From: Rudaea sp. 3F27F6
GTDB taxonomy: Bacteria > Pseudomonadota > Gammaproteobacteria > Xanthomonadales > Rhodanobacteraceae
Length of the DNA stretch: 64,000 nucleotides
NCBI RefSeq assembly: GCF_005503555.1
Contig: NZ_SCNG01000001.1
Coordinates: forward strand, 1,364,001 to 1,428,000
Direction: 5' to 3'
The stretch's first letter is position 1. The number at the start of each line of letters is the position of its first letter. The notes beneath the pieces were generated by a model. That model saw only the letters and a program-made list of their open reading frames with translations, was not told the DNA's origin and did not search any database. Below are positions 2-52,365 of this stretch, in pieces. Made by a program: the position numbers and the translations under genes.

Positions 2-403
2 TTCGCCCTCGACGACAACCAGCTCACGTCGATCGTCCTGCGTCTCGACGCGCTCGGCATCGTCAACTATCGGCCGCCGCGGCGCATCCGCAAACTGACT
101 GCGCGCAATTTCGCCTGGCGCAAGGACGGACCGGTACACGAGTTCTTCGTCGCGCGTGTCGCGCCCGAATTCCTGCGCGCGCGCTTCAACGCGCCGACGG
201 AAGAGTTGCGCTTCATCGGCGGCGTGTTGTCGGCCGCATCGCAGAAGCAGATCAAGGCGGCGATCGAACGTCTCGCGCGCGAATTCGACGAACTTGCCCA
301 CCGCGATGCGCGTCTGCCGCTCGAATCCAAGGACGGCTGCTCGGCGCTGCTCGCGTTCCGTCAGTGGGAATTTTCCGAGTTCACGCGCCTGCGCCGGCCT
401 TAG
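2..403 (+). CDS. C-terminal part of a putative DNA-binding regulator (5' end outside window)
   Basis: An open frame enters from the left edge and ends at TAG 401-403, giving about 133 residues. The visible part begins with a segment like the end of a winged or helix-turn-helix domain (QLTSIVLRLDALGIVNYRPP) and continues into a basic, helical C-terminal region ending FTRLRRP. It resembles, from memory, the C-terminal half of Xanthomonadales regulators annotated as XRE/helix-turn-helix proteins, but the HTH itself lies outside the window, so the family call is tentative. It is convergent with yadH, whose stop is only about 30 bases away. Confidence 0.55.
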   Translation, partial: FALDDNQLTSIVLRLDALGIVNYRPPRRIRKLTARNFAWRKDGPVHEFFVARVAPEFLRARFNAPTEELRFIGGVLSAASQKQIKAAIERLAREFDELAHRDARLPLESKDGCSALLAFRQWEFSEFTRLRRP

Positions 404-42253: not shown

Positions 42254-44422
42254 ATGCTTCGACTTCGACCGATCGTCCTCGCCATGAGCATCGCCTTCAG
42301 CGCGCACGCGCAGCCACCGCAGAAACCCGCCGAGCCGGCCAAGAGCGCCGATGCCGCCAAGGCGGTCAATCCGTTCTTCGCCGCGAGCACGCTGCAGTAC
42401 CAGGCGCCGCCGTTCGACAAGATCAAGGACAGCGACTACGCGCCGGCCTTCGACGAAGGCATGAAGCTGCAGATCGCCGAAGTCGAGACGATCGCGAACC
42501 AGAGCGCAGCGCCGACCTTCGACAACACCATCGTCGCGCTCGAACGCACCGGCCAGACGCTGACGCGCGTGTCCAAGGTGTTCTTCGCCCTCGCCCAGGC
42601 GAACACCAACGACGACATCCAGAAGATTCAGGAAGACTACGCGCCGAAACTCGCCGCGCACCAGGACGCGATCTTCCTCAACGGCAAGCTCTATGCGCGC
42701 GTGAAGAAGCTCTATGAAGGCCGCGCCGCACTCGGCCTCGACGCGGAATCGTCGCGCCTGCTCGACCGCTATCACCTCGCCTTCGTCCGCGCCGGCGCCG
42801 AGTTGTCCGCGGCCGACCAGACCAAGCTCAAGGACCTCAACAAGGAAGAGTCTTCACTGCAGACCGCGTTTCAGCAGAAGCTGCTCGCCGCGACCAAGGC
42901 CGGCGCGCTCGTCGTCGACGACAAGGCGCAGCTCAAGGGCTACAACGACGGCGATCTCGCCGCCGCGCTCGAAGCGGGCAAGAACCGCAAGCTAGACGGC
43001 AAGTACGTCGTCGCGCTGCAGAACACGACCCAGCAGCCGGCGCAGGAATCGCTCGCCGACCGCGCCACGCGCGAGAAGCTGTTCAAGGCCTCGATCGACC
43101 GCGCCGAACACGGCGACGGCAACGACACGCGCGCGACGATCCAGCGCCTCGCCGAACTGCGCGTGCAGAAAGCCAACCTGCTCGGCTTCAAGACCTGGGC
43201 CGACTACGGTCTCGCCGACCAGATGGCGAAGAAGCCCGAGAACGCGATCAAGCTGATGACCGACATCGTGCCGATGGCCGTCGCCAAGGCCAAGGACGAA
43301 GCCGCAGGCATGCAGAAACTGGTCGACGAGCAGAAGGGCGGCTTCAAGCTCGCACCGTGGGACTGGCAGTACTACTCCGAGCAGGTGCGCAAGAAAAACT
43401 ACGATCTCGACCAGAACGAGATCAAGCAGTACTTCGAACTCGACAGCGTGCTGCAGAACGGCGTGTTCTTCGCCGCGAACAAGCTCTACGGCGTGACCTT
43501 CAAGGAGCGCCACGACCTGCCGGTCTACCAGCCCGACGTGCGCGTGTTCGAGATGTTCGACACCGACGGCAAGTCGATGGCGTTGTTCTATGCCGACTAC
43601 TTCAAGCGCGACAACAAGTCCGGCGGCGCGTGGATGGACAGCTTCGTCGATCAGAACAATTTGCTCGGCACGCGTCCGGTCGTGTTCAACGTCTGCAACT
43701 TCACCAAGCCGGCGCCCGGTCAGCCCGCGCTGATCAGCCACGACGACGCGATCACCATGTTCCACGAGTTCGGCCATGCGTTGCACGGCCTGTTCTCGAA
43801 CGTGAAGTATCCGTATCTCGCCGGCACCAACGTGCCGCGCGACTTCGTCGAGTTCCCCTCGCAGTTCAACGAGCACTGGGCCGACGAGCCGAGCGTGTTC
43901 GCCAATTACGCCAAACACTACAAGACCGGCGCGCCGATGCCGGCCGAACTGGTCGCCAAGATCAAGAAGGCCGGCACTTACGGCCAGGGCTTCGCCACGA
44001 CCGAATACCTCGGCGCCGCCTTGCTCGACCAGGCCTGGCACAGCCTGCCGAAGGACAGCACGAAGCAGGACGTCGACAAGTTCGAGACTGCAGCGCTTAC
44101 GCGCTATCACGTCGACTACGCGCTCGTGCCGCCGCGCTATCGCACCAGCTACTTCGCCCACATCTGGGGCGGCGGCTACTCGGCCGGCTACTACGCCTAC
44201 CTGTGGACCGCCGTGCTGCGCGACGACGCCTACTACTGGTTCAAGGAACACGGCGGCATGACCCGCGAGAACGGCCAGCGCTTCCGCGACATGGTTCTCT
44301 CGCGCGGCGGCACCGAGGAGACCGACGCGCTCTACCGCGCCTGGCGCGGCCGCGATCCAAGCGTCGAGCCGCTGCTCGAAGTGCGCGGCCTGAAGCCGGC
44401 AAAAGCGGACAAGTCGAAGTAA
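42254..44422 (+). CDS. M3 family zinc metallopeptidase (Dcp-like), exported copy
   Basis: 722 residues with a signal peptide (cleavage near SAHA). The C-terminal half has the zinc motif MFHEFGHALHGLF (HEXXH) and downstream PSQFNEHWADEP with the third ligand, plus YFAHIWGGGYSAGYYAYLW that closes the active site in oligopeptidase A/Dcp enzymes. It should cleave peptides in the periplasm (peptidyl-dipeptidase type). It is the first of a tandem pair of paralogues whose C-terminal DNA is almost identical. Confidence 0.93.
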   Translation: MLRLRPIVLAMSIAFSAHAQPPQKPAEPAKSADAAKAVNPFFAASTLQYQAPPFDKIKDSDYAPAFDEGMKLQIAEVETIANQSAAPTFDNTIVALERTGQTLTRVSKVFFALAQANTNDDIQKIQEDYAPKLAAHQDAIFLNGKLYARVKKLYEGRAALGLDAESSRLLDRYHLAFVRAGAELSAADQTKLKDLNKEESSLQTAFQQKLLAATKAGALVVDDKAQLKGYNDGDLAAALEAGKNRKLDGKYVVALQNTTQQPAQESLADRATREKLFKASIDRAEHGDGNDTRATIQRLAELRVQKANLLGFKTWADYGLADQMAKKPENAIKLMTDIVPMAVAKAKDEAAGMQKLVDEQKGGFKLAPWDWQYYSEQVRKKNYDLDQNEIKQYFELDSVLQNGVFFAANKLYGVTFKERHDLPVYQPDVRVFEMFDTDGKSMALFYADYFKRDNKSGGAWMDSFVDQNNLLGTRPVVFNVCNFTKPAPGQPALISHDDAITMFHEFGHALHGLFSNVKYPYLAGTNVPRDFVEFPSQFNEHWADEPSVFANYAKHYKTGAPMPAELVAKIKKAGTYGQGFATTEYLGAALLDQAWHSLPKDSTKQDVDKFETAALTRYHVDYALVPPRYRTSYFAHIWGGGYSAGYYAYLWTAVLRDDAYYWFKEHGGMTRENGQRFRDMVLSRGGTEETDALYRAWRGRDPSVEPLLEVRGLKPAKADKSK

Positions 44423-44445
44423 ACTTCCGCCACCACGCAACACAC

Positions 44446-44475
44446 CGTCGCGCCGCTCTGCGGCGCGACGTTTTT
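44446..44475 (+). terminator. Intrinsic terminator between the two M3 peptidase genes
   Basis: Perfect 11-base arms CGTCGCGCCGC / GCGGCGCGACG with a 3-base loop and a TTTTTC tail, 24 bases after the first stop and 15 bases before the second start codon. Confidence 0.85.
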
Positions 44476-44490
44476 CAGCCGAGGCAATCC

Positions 44491-46755
44491 ATGTTCCGCA
44501 TCCGTCCGATCCTTGCCGCTTTGACCGTCGTCCTCGTCGCGTCCTGCTCGACCGTGGCCGACAAGCCCGCCGCCGATACCGCCGATAAAGCCGCCGGAAA
44601 GAAAGACAAAGACAGCGCCATCGCTAGCGATATCACCGACCCGCTGCCGGGCAATCCGTTCGCCGAAAAGAGCGCCCTGCCGTTCGAGGCGCCGCAGTTC
44701 GACCGCATCCGCGACGGCGATTTCCAGCCCGCGATCGAAGAAGGCATGCGCCGTCAGATCGCCGAAATCGAGCGCATCGCCAACAACAAAGAACCGGCGA
44801 CGTTCGACAACACTCTCGTCGCGATGGAAAAGTCCGGCGCGCTGCTGACACGCGTGAGCCGCGTGTTCTCCGCGCTCGCGCAGGCGAACACCAACGACGT
44901 CCTCCAGCGCGTGCAAAAAGAAGAAGCGCCGAAACTCGCCGCGCACCAGGACGCGATTTATCTCAACGCCAAGCTGTTCACGCGCGTGAAGACCCTCTAC
45001 GCCAAGCGCGATACGCTCGGCCTCGACGCCGAATCGTCGCGTCTGCTCGAGCGCTACTATCGCCTGTTCGTGCGCGCCGGCGCAGAGCTGTCGTCCGACG
45101 ACCAGGGCAAACTGCGCGACTACAACAAGGAACTGTCGTCGCTGTCGACCGAGTTCCGCAGCAAGCTGCTCGCCGCGACCAAGGCCGGCGCTCTCGTCGC
45201 CGACGACAAGACCGACCTGGCCGGCCTGTCGGAAAGCGATCTCGCCGCCGCGCTTGAAGCCGGCCGCACGCGCATGACGCCCGGCAAATACGTGATCCCG
45301 CTGCAGAACACCACGCAGCAGCCCGCACTCGCCTCGCTGCAGAAGCGCGACACGCGCGAGAAGCTGTTCAACTCGTCGATCCTGCGCGCCGAGCGCTACG
45401 ACGACAACGACACGCGCAAGACCATCACGCGCACCGCCGAACTGCGCGCGGAGAAAGCCAAGCTGCTCGGCTACGACACCTGGGCGGCCTATGTGCTCGA
45501 CGACCAGATGGCGAAGAAGCCCGAGAAGGCGATCAAGCTGATGACCGACATGGTCCCGGCCGCGGTCGACAAGGCGAAGAACCAGGCACGCGAGATGGAA
45601 AAGATCGCGAAGAAGGACGGCATCCAGTTCAAGCCCTGGGATCTGAAGTTCTACTCGCCCAGTGCGAAGAAGGAAGGCGGCGCGCTGCGCCCGTGGGACT
45701 GGGACTACTACGCCGAGCAGGTGCGCAAGAGCCGCTTCCAGCTCGACGCCGAGGAGATCAAGCAGTACTTCGAACTCGACAGCGTGCTGCAGAACGGCGT
45801 GTTCTTCGCCGCGAACAAGCTCTACGGTGTGACCTTCAAGGAACGCAAGGACATTCCGGTCTACCAGCGCGACGTGCGCGTGTTCGAAGTGTTCGATGAA
45901 GACGGCACCTCGATCGCCTTGTTCTACGCCGACTACTTCAAGCGCGACAACAAAGCCGGTGGCGCCTGGGCGACCGCGTTTGTCGGCCAGTCGACCCTGC
46001 TCGAGCAGAAGCCGGTCATCACCAACACCTGCAACTTCACCAAGCCCGCGCCGGGCCAGCCCGCGCTGCTGAGCCGCGACGACGTGATCACGATGTTCCA
46101 CGAATTCGGCCATGCGCTGCACGGCATGTTCTCGAACGTGAAGTACCCGCTGCTCGGCGGTACCAGCGTGCCGCGCGACTTCGTCGAGTTCCCCTCGCAG
46201 TTCAACGAGCACTGGGCCGACGAGCCGAGCGTGTTCGCCAACTACGCCAAGCACTACAAGACCGGCGAAGCGATGCCGGCGGCGCTCGCCGCGCGCATCC
46301 GCGAGGCGGGCATGTACGACCAGGGTTTCGCCACCACCGAATATCTCGGCGCCGCCCTGCTCGACATGGCCTGGCATACCCTGCCGCGCTCGCTGACCAT
46401 CGTCGACAACACCGACGCCTTCGAGCGCACCGCGCTGAAGAAGTACGACGTCGACTACGCGCTCGTGCCGCCGCGCTATCGCACCAGCTACTTCGCCCAC
46501 ATCTGGGGCGGCGGCTACTCGGCCGGCTACTACGCCTACCTGTGGACCGCCGTGCTGCGCGACGACGCCTATTACTGGTTCAAGGAACACGGCGGTATGA
46601 CCCGCGAGAACGGCCAGCGCTTCCGCGACATGGTTCTTTCGCGCGGCGGCACTCAGGAAACCGACGCGCTGTACCGCGCCTGGCGCGGCCGCGACCCAAG
46701 CGTCGAGCCACTGCTCGAAGTGCGGGGCCTGAAGCCGGCGGCAAAGACCCGCTAA
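44491..46755 (+). CDS. M3 family zinc metallopeptidase (Dcp-like), lipoprotein copy
   Basis: 754 residues. Unlike its neighbour it carries a lipoprotein signal (MFRIRPILAALTVVLVASC; Cys in ASC) and a charged linker rich in K and D, so it should be membrane-tethered in the periplasm. HEXXH is in TMFHEFGHALHGMF and the closing motif YFAHIWGGGYSAGYY is identical to copy 1. It has an extra segment of about 20 residues (PWDLKFYSPSAKKEGGALR) just before PWDWDYYAEQVRKS, which looks like a partial duplication of that motif. GAGG precedes ATG 44491. Confidence 0.93.
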   Translation: MFRIRPILAALTVVLVASCSTVADKPAADTADKAAGKKDKDSAIASDITDPLPGNPFAEKSALPFEAPQFDRIRDGDFQPAIEEGMRRQIAEIERIANNKEPATFDNTLVAMEKSGALLTRVSRVFSALAQANTNDVLQRVQKEEAPKLAAHQDAIYLNAKLFTRVKTLYAKRDTLGLDAESSRLLERYYRLFVRAGAELSSDDQGKLRDYNKELSSLSTEFRSKLLAATKAGALVADDKTDLAGLSESDLAAALEAGRTRMTPGKYVIPLQNTTQQPALASLQKRDTREKLFNSSILRAERYDDNDTRKTITRTAELRAEKAKLLGYDTWAAYVLDDQMAKKPEKAIKLMTDMVPAAVDKAKNQAREMEKIAKKDGIQFKPWDLKFYSPSAKKEGGALRPWDWDYYAEQVRKSRFQLDAEEIKQYFELDSVLQNGVFFAANKLYGVTFKERKDIPVYQRDVRVFEVFDEDGTSIALFYADYFKRDNKAGGAWATAFVGQSTLLEQKPVITNTCNFTKPAPGQPALLSRDDVITMFHEFGHALHGMFSNVKYPLLGGTSVPRDFVEFPSQFNEHWADEPSVFANYAKHYKTGEAMPAALAARIREAGMYDQGFATTEYLGAALLDMAWHTLPRSLTIVDNTDAFERTALKKYDVDYALVPPRYRTSYFAHIWGGGYSAGYYAYLWTAVLRDDAYYWFKEHGGMTRENGQRFRDMVLSRGGTQETDALYRAWRGRDPSVEPLLEVRGLKPAAKTR

Positions 46756-46767
46756 CTCAAGGCGCTC

Positions 46768-46823
46768 TTAATTTTTGAATTTCCCACACTTAACTAGCGA
46801 ATAACGGGGTTTAATTTTAGAAT
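46768..46823 (+). promoter_or_regulatory. Long-spaced direct repeats upstream of the wHTH-ATPase-STAS gene
   Basis: TTAATTTTTGAAT (46768-46780) and TTAATTTTAGAAT (46811-46823) differ at one of 13 positions and are 43 bases apart (about four helical turns), in the only AT-rich stretch nearby. TAGAAT in the second could be a -10 box. The gene starts 7 bases after the second repeat. Likely operator or promoter elements, perhaps bound by the gene's own HTH. Confidence 0.5.
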
Positions 46824-46829
46824 CCAGGA

Positions 46830-47879
46830 ATGGCCAGACCGAGCCGTTCCAAGGAAATCGAAACCGCCCTGTTGCAGGCGGTCGCCAGCCATCCGCGCGA
46901 TTTGGTGGGCATGGTGGCCGCGCAACTGGGCTTATCGAGCGCAAGAATTACCAACGAAGTGCGCTCGCTGGTCGCGCAAGGCTATCTGGCAAAGGCGGGA
47001 TCGACACGTCCTACCTATAGCCTCGGACACAATCGACGCTTCGAGCACACCTATCGACGCGAAGGACTGGCCGAACATCTCGTGTGGCAGGAAAATCTCC
47101 TTCCACTGTTGCGTGATGTGCCGCGAAACGTGCTCGACATCGCGCAGCACGGCGTGACCGAGATGGTCAACAACGCGATCGACCATTCCGATGCCACGTC
47201 GATCATCGTCGGCATGGACCTTCGCGACGGTCACTTGTCCCTCACGGTCGCCGACGACGGTATCGGCATCTTCCGCAAGATTTCACGCGCGCTGCAACTG
47301 CCCGATGAACGCCTCGCGCTACTGGAATTGTCCAAGGGCAAGTTCACCACCGATCCGCAGCGGCATTCCGGCGAGGGCGTGTTCTTCACCTCGCGGATGT
47401 TCGACGATTTCCAGATCATCTCGGGCGGATTGGCATTCGATCACGCGGAAAAGCGCACAGACATGCTGATCGACATCGACTCGGCGCCCAAAGCAGGCAC
47501 TCTGGTTCGCATGGCGATCAGTACCACCTCGACGCGCACCGCGAGCGAAGTGTTCAAAGAGTATTCCAGCGGCCCCGATGACTATGCTTTCGCCAAGACC
47601 ATCGTTCCCGTGCGTCTGGTGCAAATCGGCGACGAAAATCTGGTGTCGCGCTCACAAGCCAAGCGCGTCCTGCAACGGGTGGAAAAATTTCGTCACGTCG
47701 TCTTCGACTTCGAGGGCATTCTCACCATCGGTCAGGCATTTGCCGACGAAATATTCCGCGTGTTCGCCTTGGCGCACCCGGAAGTGGAACTGATCGCAAC
47801 GCACGCCGTTCCCGAAGTGCAGCAAATGATTCGACGCGCCGAAGTCGCGCGAGACGAAACGGCGGCCAACTCTCTCTGA
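46830..47879 (+). CDS. wHTH - GHKL ATPase - STAS-like (DUF4325) fusion protein
   Basis: 349 residues in three parts. Residues 1-65 form a winged-helix DNA-binding domain (LLQAVASHPRDLVGMVAAQ, RITNEVRSLVAQGYLAKAG). Residues 85-235 form a GHKL/histidine-kinase-type ATPase: N box EMVNNAIDHSDA at 111-122, G1 DDGIGIF at 142-148, G2 GEGVFFT at 181-187. Residues 255-335 form a STAS-like DUF4325 domain (FRHVVFDFEGILTIGQAFADEIFRVF). There is no phospho-acceptor dimerisation domain, so it is not a standard sensor kinase; it recalls an anti-sigma-factor-type kinase plus its STAS partner fused to DNA binding. The SD-like AGGA abuts ATG 46830 too closely for normal use. Stand-alone gene, convergent with gshA. 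Confidence 0.85.
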   Translation: MARPSRSKEIETALLQAVASHPRDLVGMVAAQLGLSSARITNEVRSLVAQGYLAKAGSTRPTYSLGHNRRFEHTYRREGLAEHLVWQENLLPLLRDVPRNVLDIAQHGVTEMVNNAIDHSDATSIIVGMDLRDGHLSLTVADDGIGIFRKISRALQLPDERLALLELSKGKFTTDPQRHSGEGVFFTSRMFDDFQIISGGLAFDHAEKRTDMLIDIDSAPKAGTLVRMAISTTSTRTASEVFKEYSSGPDDYAFAKTIVPVRLVQIGDENLVSRSQAKRVLQRVEKFRHVVFDFEGILTIGQAFADEIFRVFALAHPEVELIATHAVPEVQQMIRRAEVARDETAANSL

Positions 47880-50889: not shown

Positions 50890-50914
50890 TCGTTATTGCT
50901 GCAAAGGAATCTTC

Positions 50915-51610
50915 ATGTTCGCCCGTCTGCTGACCGCGCTTTTCGCTTCCGCCGTTATCGCCCCGCTCGCCCAGGCGCAGGCACCCGCCGCCGCTCCGGC
51001 CTGGAAAGAAGGCACTCATTATTTCGTCGTCGAGCCGACCGTGCCGAGTGAATCGGGTGACGGCAAGATCGAAGTCACCGAAGTGTTTTCCTACGGCTGC
51101 CCGGCCTGCAACTTCTTCTACCCGACGATCAACAAGCTCAAGAAGGCGCTGCCGCCGAACGCGGTGATGAACTTCGTGCCGGCCTCGTTCAATCCGAGCG
51201 AAGACTGGCCGATGTTCCAGCGCGCCTATCTGACCGCGGTGACGCTCGGCATCGCGGAAAAATCGCACGACGCGATGTTCGATGCGGTGTGGAAGCCGAA
51301 TGCCCCGCTCGCGATCATGAACCCCGACGGACGCACGCTGAAGAAGCCGCTGCCGTCGATCGAAGACGCGGCGAAGTTCTATGCGCAGTACGGCGTCAAG
51401 GCCGAAGATTTCGTCGCGACGGCGAATTCGTTTGCGATCAATGCGAAGATGAAACGCGCCGACGCCTTCCTCAAGGCGACGATGACCGACTCGACGCCGA
51501 CCATCGTCGTCGGCGGCAAGTATCGTTTCAACCCCGGCTCGGCCGGCGGCGAAGACAAAGTCGTGCCGTTGACGCTGTATCTGATCCAGCAGGCCGCAAG
51601 CGCCAAGTAA
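50915..51610 (+). CDS. dsbA: Thiol:disulfide interchange protein, DsbA family (CPAC active site)
   Basis: 231 residues with a signal peptide (cleavage near AQAQ). The thioredoxin-fold active site is CPAC in VFSYGCPACNFFYP; a cis-proline follows in DSTPTIVV. DsbA enzymes usually have CPHC, so the dipeptide differs. Periplasmic oxidation of protein thiols is the expected role. AAGGA precedes ATG 50915. It is followed after 32 bases by a second DsbA-like gene. Confidence 0.9.
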   Translation: MFARLLTALFASAVIAPLAQAQAPAAAPAWKEGTHYFVVEPTVPSESGDGKIEVTEVFSYGCPACNFFYPTINKLKKALPPNAVMNFVPASFNPSEDWPMFQRAYLTAVTLGIAEKSHDAMFDAVWKPNAPLAIMNPDGRTLKKPLPSIEDAAKFYAQYGVKAEDFVATANSFAINAKMKRADAFLKATMTDSTPTIVVGGKYRFNPGSAGGEDKVVPLTLYLIQQAASAK

Positions 51611-51642
51611 GCCCTCACGCCCACGTCGTATCCGGAGCCGCC

Positions 51643-52365
51643 ATGTTCAAACGCCTTGCCTTCCTGTTCCTCGCCATGCTCGCAGTGTCCGCCTGCAACG
51701 GCGACAAGAGCGCGACCGCCGCTCCGGCCGCGAAGAATGCCGCGAGCACGCCGGCTGCGCCTGCTGCGGCGACGGCCGCTTCGGCTGCTACGCCGGCGCG
51801 CGAATGGCAGCTCGGCTCCGACTACTATTTGATCGATCCGCGCGTGCCGACCTCGACCGGCGACAAGGTCGAAGTCGCCGAAGTGTTCTCCTACGCCTGC
51901 CCGCACTGCGCGCACTTCCAGCCGACGATGGACGAACTCAAGGCCAAGCTGCCGGCGAACGCGCAGATCGTTCTGATCCCGGCCGTGTTCAATCCGCAGT
52001 GGGAGCCGTTCGCGCGGGCGTTCTACACGGCGCGTGCGCTCGGCCTGCTCGACAAGACTCACGTCGCCCTGTTCGAAGCGCTGCACACCGAGCACCAGCC
52101 GCTGTATTCGATCGACTCGCTCGCGAACTTCTACAGCAAGTACGGCGCGGATCCGAAGTCGTTCCTCGCCACGGCCAACTCCTTCGTCATCGACAGCCAG
52201 ATCGCGAACGGCAACCGCCTCGTCACTTCCTACGGCGTCGGCTCGACGCCGACGCTGGTGATCAACGGCAAGTACCGCGTCGAGATGAGCGCCGAGAAAA
52301 ATATCGGACCGAAGGAAGCGCTCGACATCGCCCTGATGCTGGTCAAGCAGGAAAGCGCCAAGTAA
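51643..52365 (+). CDS. DsbA-like thiol:disulfide interchange lipoprotein (CPHC active site)
   Basis: 240 residues: lipoprotein signal with lipobox VSAC (MFKRLAFLFLAMLAVSAC), an Ala/Pro-rich linker of about 35 residues, then a DsbA domain with CPHC in FSYACPHCAHF and the cis-proline in GSTPTLVI. Membrane-tethered periplasmic oxidoreductase. Its canonical CPHC contrasts with the CPAC of the soluble paralogue just upstream, suggesting divided roles. Confidence 0.9.
   Translation: MFKRLAFLFLAMLAVSACNGDKSATAAPAAKNAASTPAAPAAATAASAATPAREWQLGSDYYLIDPRVPTSTGDKVEVAEVFSYACPHCAHFQPTMDELKAKLPANAQIVLIPAVFNPQWEPFARAFYTARALGLLDKTHVALFEALHTEHQPLYSIDSLANFYSKYGADPKSFLATANSFVIDSQIANGNRLVTSYGVGSTPTLVINGKYRVEMSAEKNIGPKEALDIALMLVKQESAK

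Follow-up and report, generated by a model that had tools for sequence, protein, structure and literature searches.

The closest described relatives of the locus reported here are CapK/CapS and VapKSC, and its parts and signalling kit are already known from these systems (PMC13373217). In CapK/CapS (EMBO J, 2026), CapK carries its domains in the order HTH-STAS-GHKL, and CapS is a STAS-wHTH protein with an essential serine. The STAS repressor lets go of DNA when it is phosphorylated, CapK is activated by ssDNA via a conserved aromatic residue, W68, and CapK/CapS precede immune operons (PMC13373217). The kit of CapK/CapS and VapKSC, described in 2026 (PMC13373217), is a two-gene version, consisting of a STAS-GHKL kinase and a stand-alone DUF4325 protein. 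VapKSC itself comprises three genes, including one for a PIN toxin, and lacks a DNA-binding domain; VapS is a DUF4325 homologue with a GHKL kinase partner, and its phospho-acceptor is S48 (PMC13373217).

We analysed a 64,000-nucleotide stretch of DNA from Rudaea sp. 3F27F6 (hereafter, the window), in which a single gene encodes a 349-residue protein with a winged helix, a GHKL ATPase and a STAS-like domain (Table 1). In common with CapK/CapS, a SpoIIAB-type GHKL kinase, a STAS domain and a winged helix are found in one regulatory unit, the helix-turn-helix is N-terminal to the kinase, and the upstream sequence suggests autoregulation. However, CapK/CapS are two proteins, encoded by a kinase gene followed by a gene for the STAS-wHTH repressor, whereas here a single gene encodes one chain in the order wHTH-GHKL-STAS-like. 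The essential serine of CapS is replaced by glutamine, and direct repeats are found in place of the CapK/CapS palindromes. SpoIIAB/SpoIIAA and RsbW/RsbV share with the protein the GHKL fold, an ExxNNAxxH-type N box and the STAS fold, but are separate proteins with a sigma factor partner, a serine acceptor and no winged helix. The N-terminal fold is that of IclR/MarR-type regulators, but the effector domain of these proteins is absent, and the putative binding sites are tandem direct repeats 21/22 bp apart. We found no description of the single-chain wHTH-GHKL-STAS-like arrangement in a search that covered open papers. New in this locus, as far as these papers show, are the joining of all parts in one chain, the missing acceptor serine, and a putative private operator array with almost no other target.

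Table 1. Features of the gene and its upstream region (positions are those of the window)
Feature	Position	Strand	Remarks
Operator-like repeat copy 1, TTAATTTTTGAAT	46768..46780	+	begins at -62 relative to the ATG
Operator-like repeat copy 2, TTAACTAGCGAAT	46790..46802	+	starts at -40
Operator-like repeat copy 3, TTAATTTTAGAAT	46811..46823	+	starts at -19
CDS	46830..47879	+	ATG start, 349 aa; three-domain protein with wHTH, GHKL ATPase and DUF4325 (STAS-like)
Winged helix-turn-helix, residues 1-66	46830..47027	+	Pfam MarR_2/HTH_IclR; helices and wing strands of the model
Recognition helix, residues ~36-48			part of the winged helix-turn-helix
W86 codon	47085..47087	+	helix preceding the GHKL domain; invariant in 80/80 members
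GHKL ATPase/kinase domain, SpoIIAB type, residues 97-235	47118..47534	+	Pfam, conserved boxes, Foldseek
STAS-like domain (DUF4325), residues 246-345	47565..47864	+	Pfam, Foldseek of separate model
Q302 codon	47733..47735	+	position of phosphorylated Ser48 of VapS; Gln in 80/80 members

The open reading frame is real, and its three domains were confirmed by sequence profiles and by a predicted structure. Pfam placed DUF4325 (PF14213) at residues 276-329 (E = 7e-13; 48.5 bits against a cut-off of 23), HATPase_c_2 at residues 97-197 (E = 3e-8, with HATPase_c at 2e-7), and MarR_2/HTH_IclR at residues 11-56 (E = 1e-5 to 1e-4), where the HTH_IclR match was slightly above its own threshold and the MarR_2 match slightly below. 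An AlphaFold model, computed with 40 family members as input, had a mean pLDDT of 86.7 and showed a winged helix with helices at residues 7-17, 25-33 and 37-49 and wing strands at 53-56 and 62-65. When the whole chain was searched with Foldseek, the top PDB match was SpoIIAB (1L0O, 1TIL), and the N-terminus matched IclR-type regulators. Residues 246-345, modelled separately, were led by matches to STAS domains (RsbS, prestin, SpoIIAA), which were weak (best E = 0.018, TM ~0.5-0.6). The fusion proposed in the preliminary description was therefore borne out by profiles and model alike, and neither of the outcomes named beforehand as speaking against it, the lack of a STAS-like fold in the C-terminal part or of a DNA-binding fold at the N-terminus, was seen.

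Relatives were searched for in one genome per species, and 80 full-length proteins were kept from 373 confirmed candidates. The family thus has at least 80 full-length members, ~43-75% identical, in Pseudomonadota, Acidobacteriota, Myxococcota, Planctomycetota, Chloroflexota, Verrucomicrobiota and other phyla. The N box (E111, N114/N115, H119), the G1 box (D142-G-I-G-I, with G144/G146) and the G2 box (G181-E-G183) are intact, as had been claimed, and with the fold they place the domain among SpoIIAB-type GHKL proteins; N115, H119, D142, G144, G146, G181 and G183 are invariant across the 80 members, and E111 is nearly so. Pfam detected no histidine-acceptor domain (DHp/HisKA) in the 349 residues, again in keeping with the earlier claim, and the protein does not qualify as a sensor histidine kinase. 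The statement that anti-sigma kinases and STAS antagonists are normally separate proteins needs to be qualified, since GHKL-DUF4325 fusions recur and the family is old and widespread. At some loci (L021, L095/L105, L096), the GHKL and DUF4325 parts are out of frame with each other, or DUF4325 occurs by itself.

The preliminary description had suggested that the protein may control its own gene, and the region between 46760 and 46830 supports this indirectly, in that it contains three phased repeats which are a hallmark of the family. The positions of the three copies relative to the start codon recur in most of the window's clade, and almost all members have 2-5 direct repeats within 120 bp upstream. 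When repeats were sought up to 120 bp from the start, the best direct-repeat period was 21 or 22 bp at 71/79 family loci, compared to 122/782 (16%) of other genes of the same loci, used as controls (Fisher p = 4e-42, a value which overstates independence because the family members are related). The direct-repeat matches upstream of control genes turned out to be unrelated low-complexity or coding repeats. Pooled autocorrelation of the upstream regions showed peaks at 21, 22 and 43 bp only, and in an even draw of members across the phylum the best repeat was 21/22 bp in 4/5, with modest scores. Repeat sequence covaries with the recognition helix. In class B, where the copy is (TA)AGGTTGACAAT, 41/42 members have an R-Q-A recognition helix (mostly RQAVNKH), which is absent from class A, the class of the window's clade. 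A third kind of site (e.g. CCTTTAAGAAAA with an inverted copy) accompanies a different recognition helix at L041, L045, L051, L074, L077, L031 and L035.

We searched whole genomes for the paired repeat, allowing up to three mismatches and using reversed patterns as controls. Paired copies lay upstream of the gene in each of the 14 class-B genomes, and likewise wherever a class-A genome yielded a match. Two three-mismatch matches away from the gene (in genomes G557 and G097) were no more than the reversed-pattern controls gave, and the exact three-copy class-B array was absent from all 398 evenly drawn genomes of the phylum. Other regulated genes were considered as candidates, but the fetched loci and the whole-genome searches gave essentially just the gene's own array. 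As would be expected of an autoregulated DNA-binding regulator, a family-specific conserved site is thus seen at the predicted promoter of the gene itself. This amounts to strong indirect evidence for autoregulation, and an autoregulator with a private operator is the simplest reading of these sequences.

TTGACA and TACAAT are frequent in the repeats, so that some of the class-B pattern could be due to overlap with promoter hexamers. On this reading the repeats would be promoter elements that overlap, not operators, and the protein would be a kinase or anti-sigma factor for an unlinked partner. In class B, the TTGACA of a copy does lie 17-18 bp from the GACAAT of the following copy, and the domain is SpoIIAB-like; however, this leaves unexplained why there are 2-5 copies, as well as the 43-bp harmonic, the sequence of class A, the covariation with the recognition helix, the near absence of the array at other genes and its occurrence in phage coding sequence, and we regard it as unlikely.

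The STAS-like domain reads G301-Q302-A303 where phosphorylated relatives have serine or threonine. In stand-alone DUF4325 proteins, helix 2 begins with Ser or Thr; many of these proteins are encoded beside a GHKL protein whose N-terminal region is STAS-like, and some of them also beside a PIN-like protein, as in VapKSC. VapS (PDB 9Z7O) was found by the stand-alone DUF4325 profile (E = 2e-15), and in the alignment the A-S-P-F serine, S48 once the tag is allowed for, pairs with Q302. The protein therefore differs at helix 2 from phosphorylated STAS antagonists of the SpoIIAA/RsbV/CapS/VapS type. By this sequence comparison the canonical phospho-acceptor is missing from the domain, and because Q302 is glutamine in all 80 members its canonical serine phosphorylation is unlikely. 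For DUF4325/GHKL proteins in general, a mechanism based on serine phosphorylation should not be taken for granted. At L117, L120, L132, L133 and L137 (also L123), two-gene modules of a GHKL kinase and a DUF4325 protein are followed by a protein of ~140-220 residues, with no PIN toxin; several of these small third proteins have a hydrophobic N-terminus, and the modules are possibly a VapKSC-like system with a different effector.

These data weigh against the one-protein partner switch put forward in the preliminary description, in which the GHKL domain would phosphorylate a STAS-like domain, either its own or that of an adjacent chain, and so toggle DNA binding. The kinase residues are intact, the domain kit equals that of CapK plus CapS (PMC13373217), and phosphorylation may occur elsewhere, for example at the conserved S273 or S275. 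However, with glutamine in 80/80 members, and Gly and Ala on either side, at the position of the acceptor Ser/Thr, such a switch appears improbable.

A local role was considered next to the self-regulating one, in which the protein, like CapK/CapS upstream of their immune operons (PMC13373217), would control an adjacent operon and the neighbour would be the output. The genes around family members vary by lineage and are mostly housekeeping; those downstream follow no pattern (hemA, mqnA, dus, cox2, jetD and others) and, in roughly half of the loci sampled from other clades than that of the window, face the opposite way, as does gshA in the window. As the downstream gene often lies on the opposite strand, we take the gene to be a one-gene unit. 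An operon partner was dismissed, the downstream genes being random with no conserved adjoining gene, and the claim that the gene has no partner holds: it is solitary, and present in one copy in the host genome. Association with defence islands, for which the preliminary description had proposed a survey of neighbours, was likewise dismissed, as no defence family recurs among 103 immediate neighbours (PADLOC, Pfam). One neighbour in the sample, Wadjet JetD, would suit a local regulator; yet with random neighbours and an array that precedes the gene itself, control of an adjacent operon is quite improbable.

The gene is patchily distributed in the bacterial family to which the window belongs, with ~14 full-length copies among 148 genomes. 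In several genomes of the same genus, the upstream peptidase and the downstream gshA are conserved with merely ~80-105 bp separating them, and at L180, also of this genus, the upstream repeats are retained while the first two-thirds of the gene are gone. This patchy presence, the empty sites and the decayed copy indicate that the gene is accessory, and comes and goes.

Relatives of the gene are also encoded by 8 viral contigs, and tail J, holin, endolysin or CI-repressor genes lie nearby in the gene-bearing records that were checked. No protein match to the gene, and no array beyond chance, was found in cultured phages and plasmids. Three-copy class-B arrays were found in 29 viral stretches, compared to 7 for a pattern with 24/25-bp spacing and 4 with 18/19-bp spacing. 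Eight of the 29 matches were viral minisatellites and were discounted; with minisatellites and duplicates removed, 18 non-redundant viral arrays stood against 1 (24/25 bp) and 0 (18/19 bp). A flanking TAAG, only partly within the search pattern, is present in ~70% of the viral copies. Array sites include the interval that separates a scaffold-like gene from a P22-like coat gene, and a position ahead of a large terminase gene. Six viral records that were retrieved for the most part have one array apiece. The array-bearing contigs are uncultured and many are fragments. None of those tested encoded a member of the family, although the same search recovered four positive controls.

The putative class-A operator matched 14 viral stretches, all with period 21 though 20 was also permitted. 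A separate mixed-orientation pattern gave no match. One class-A viral group has its array within an AAA+ gene; the spacing is 22/21, as in the host, because of which the copies are read in different frames (IVKL, DCKV). Within the array 1/39 positions vary, compared to 167/433 outside, a contrast which is partly an artefact because exact matches were selected. The class-A pattern having been a selection criterion, conservation within copies is only partly independent evidence; what is independent are the third copies, which were not selected for, and the use of two reading frames. These observations suggest that phage-borne arrays titrate the host protein, as decoys, or serve to borrow it, and arrays in viruses lacking the gene point to a conflict of bacteria and viruses that has so far not been described. 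We consider it very improbable that the protein-array complex is instead structural, for instance in tethering or segregating replicons, with phages borrowing it via their own array: phased direct repeats, one array per genome, and gene-less phage arrays independent of gene context would fit, but ~14 full-length copies in 148 genomes together with losses at the same site show that it is dispensable, and no motor partner was seen.

Taking together the domains, the predicted catalytic residues, the missing acceptor, the phased arrays, their near-uniqueness per genome and the gene-less viral arrays, all of them features of sequence, we favour, with some confidence, a solitary self-repressing GHKL/STAS-like switch or sensor, with parts akin to CapK/CapS and VapKSC, that is engaged in host-phage conflict. 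The winged helix would bind head-to-tail on three direct repeats two helical turns apart, and the bound protein would cover its own promoter and start region and turn its transcription off; we infer repression rather than activation. The GHKL domain, with its predicted ATP-binding and catalytic residues intact, is probably the switch: a signal and ATP would loosen the array-bound oligomer, and the level of the protein would rise. The STAS-like domain, which has no canonical phosphorylation site, more likely acts in regulation or sensing, as a fixed partner of the GHKL domain to which it is joined. As no other operator was found, the useful output is probably the activity of the accumulated protein rather than the transcription of other genes. 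By analogy with CapK, the trigger may be ssDNA or DNA damage, and W86 (or F309) would be a candidate counterpart of CapK W68 and VapK F54.

The most likely setting for such a self-repressing switch would be host-phage conflict, in which the gene travels with prophages as accessory cargo and some of the phages without it use a single array as a decoy, or as a means of borrowing the host regulator. More tentatively, the protein could be an undescribed anti-phage (or phage-sensing) factor that is answered by phage 'operator decoys', one array per phage genome. If this is true, decoy arrays placed between genes or within coding sequence titrate or redirect a host protein. The gene-less phage arrays make an unannotated gene a testable case of host-phage conflict over operator DNA, and the array can serve as a sequence tag for finding such genes and the phages that meet them.

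The junction between the M3 peptidase gene and gshA (L173-L187) resembles a spot for accessory genes. It is empty in some genomes of the genus; in others, on inspection by eye, it holds a decayed family copy or other genes, among them a deiminase-like gene and an AbrB/PIN-like pair. Elsewhere in the window, positions 42254-46755 contain what we take to be two adjoining M3-family peptidase genes with near-identical C-terminal parts, apparently a tandem duplication, and positions ~50900-52365 presumably encode a tandem pair of DsbA-like thiol-disulfide exchange proteins, with the motifs FSYGCPAC and FSYACPHC.
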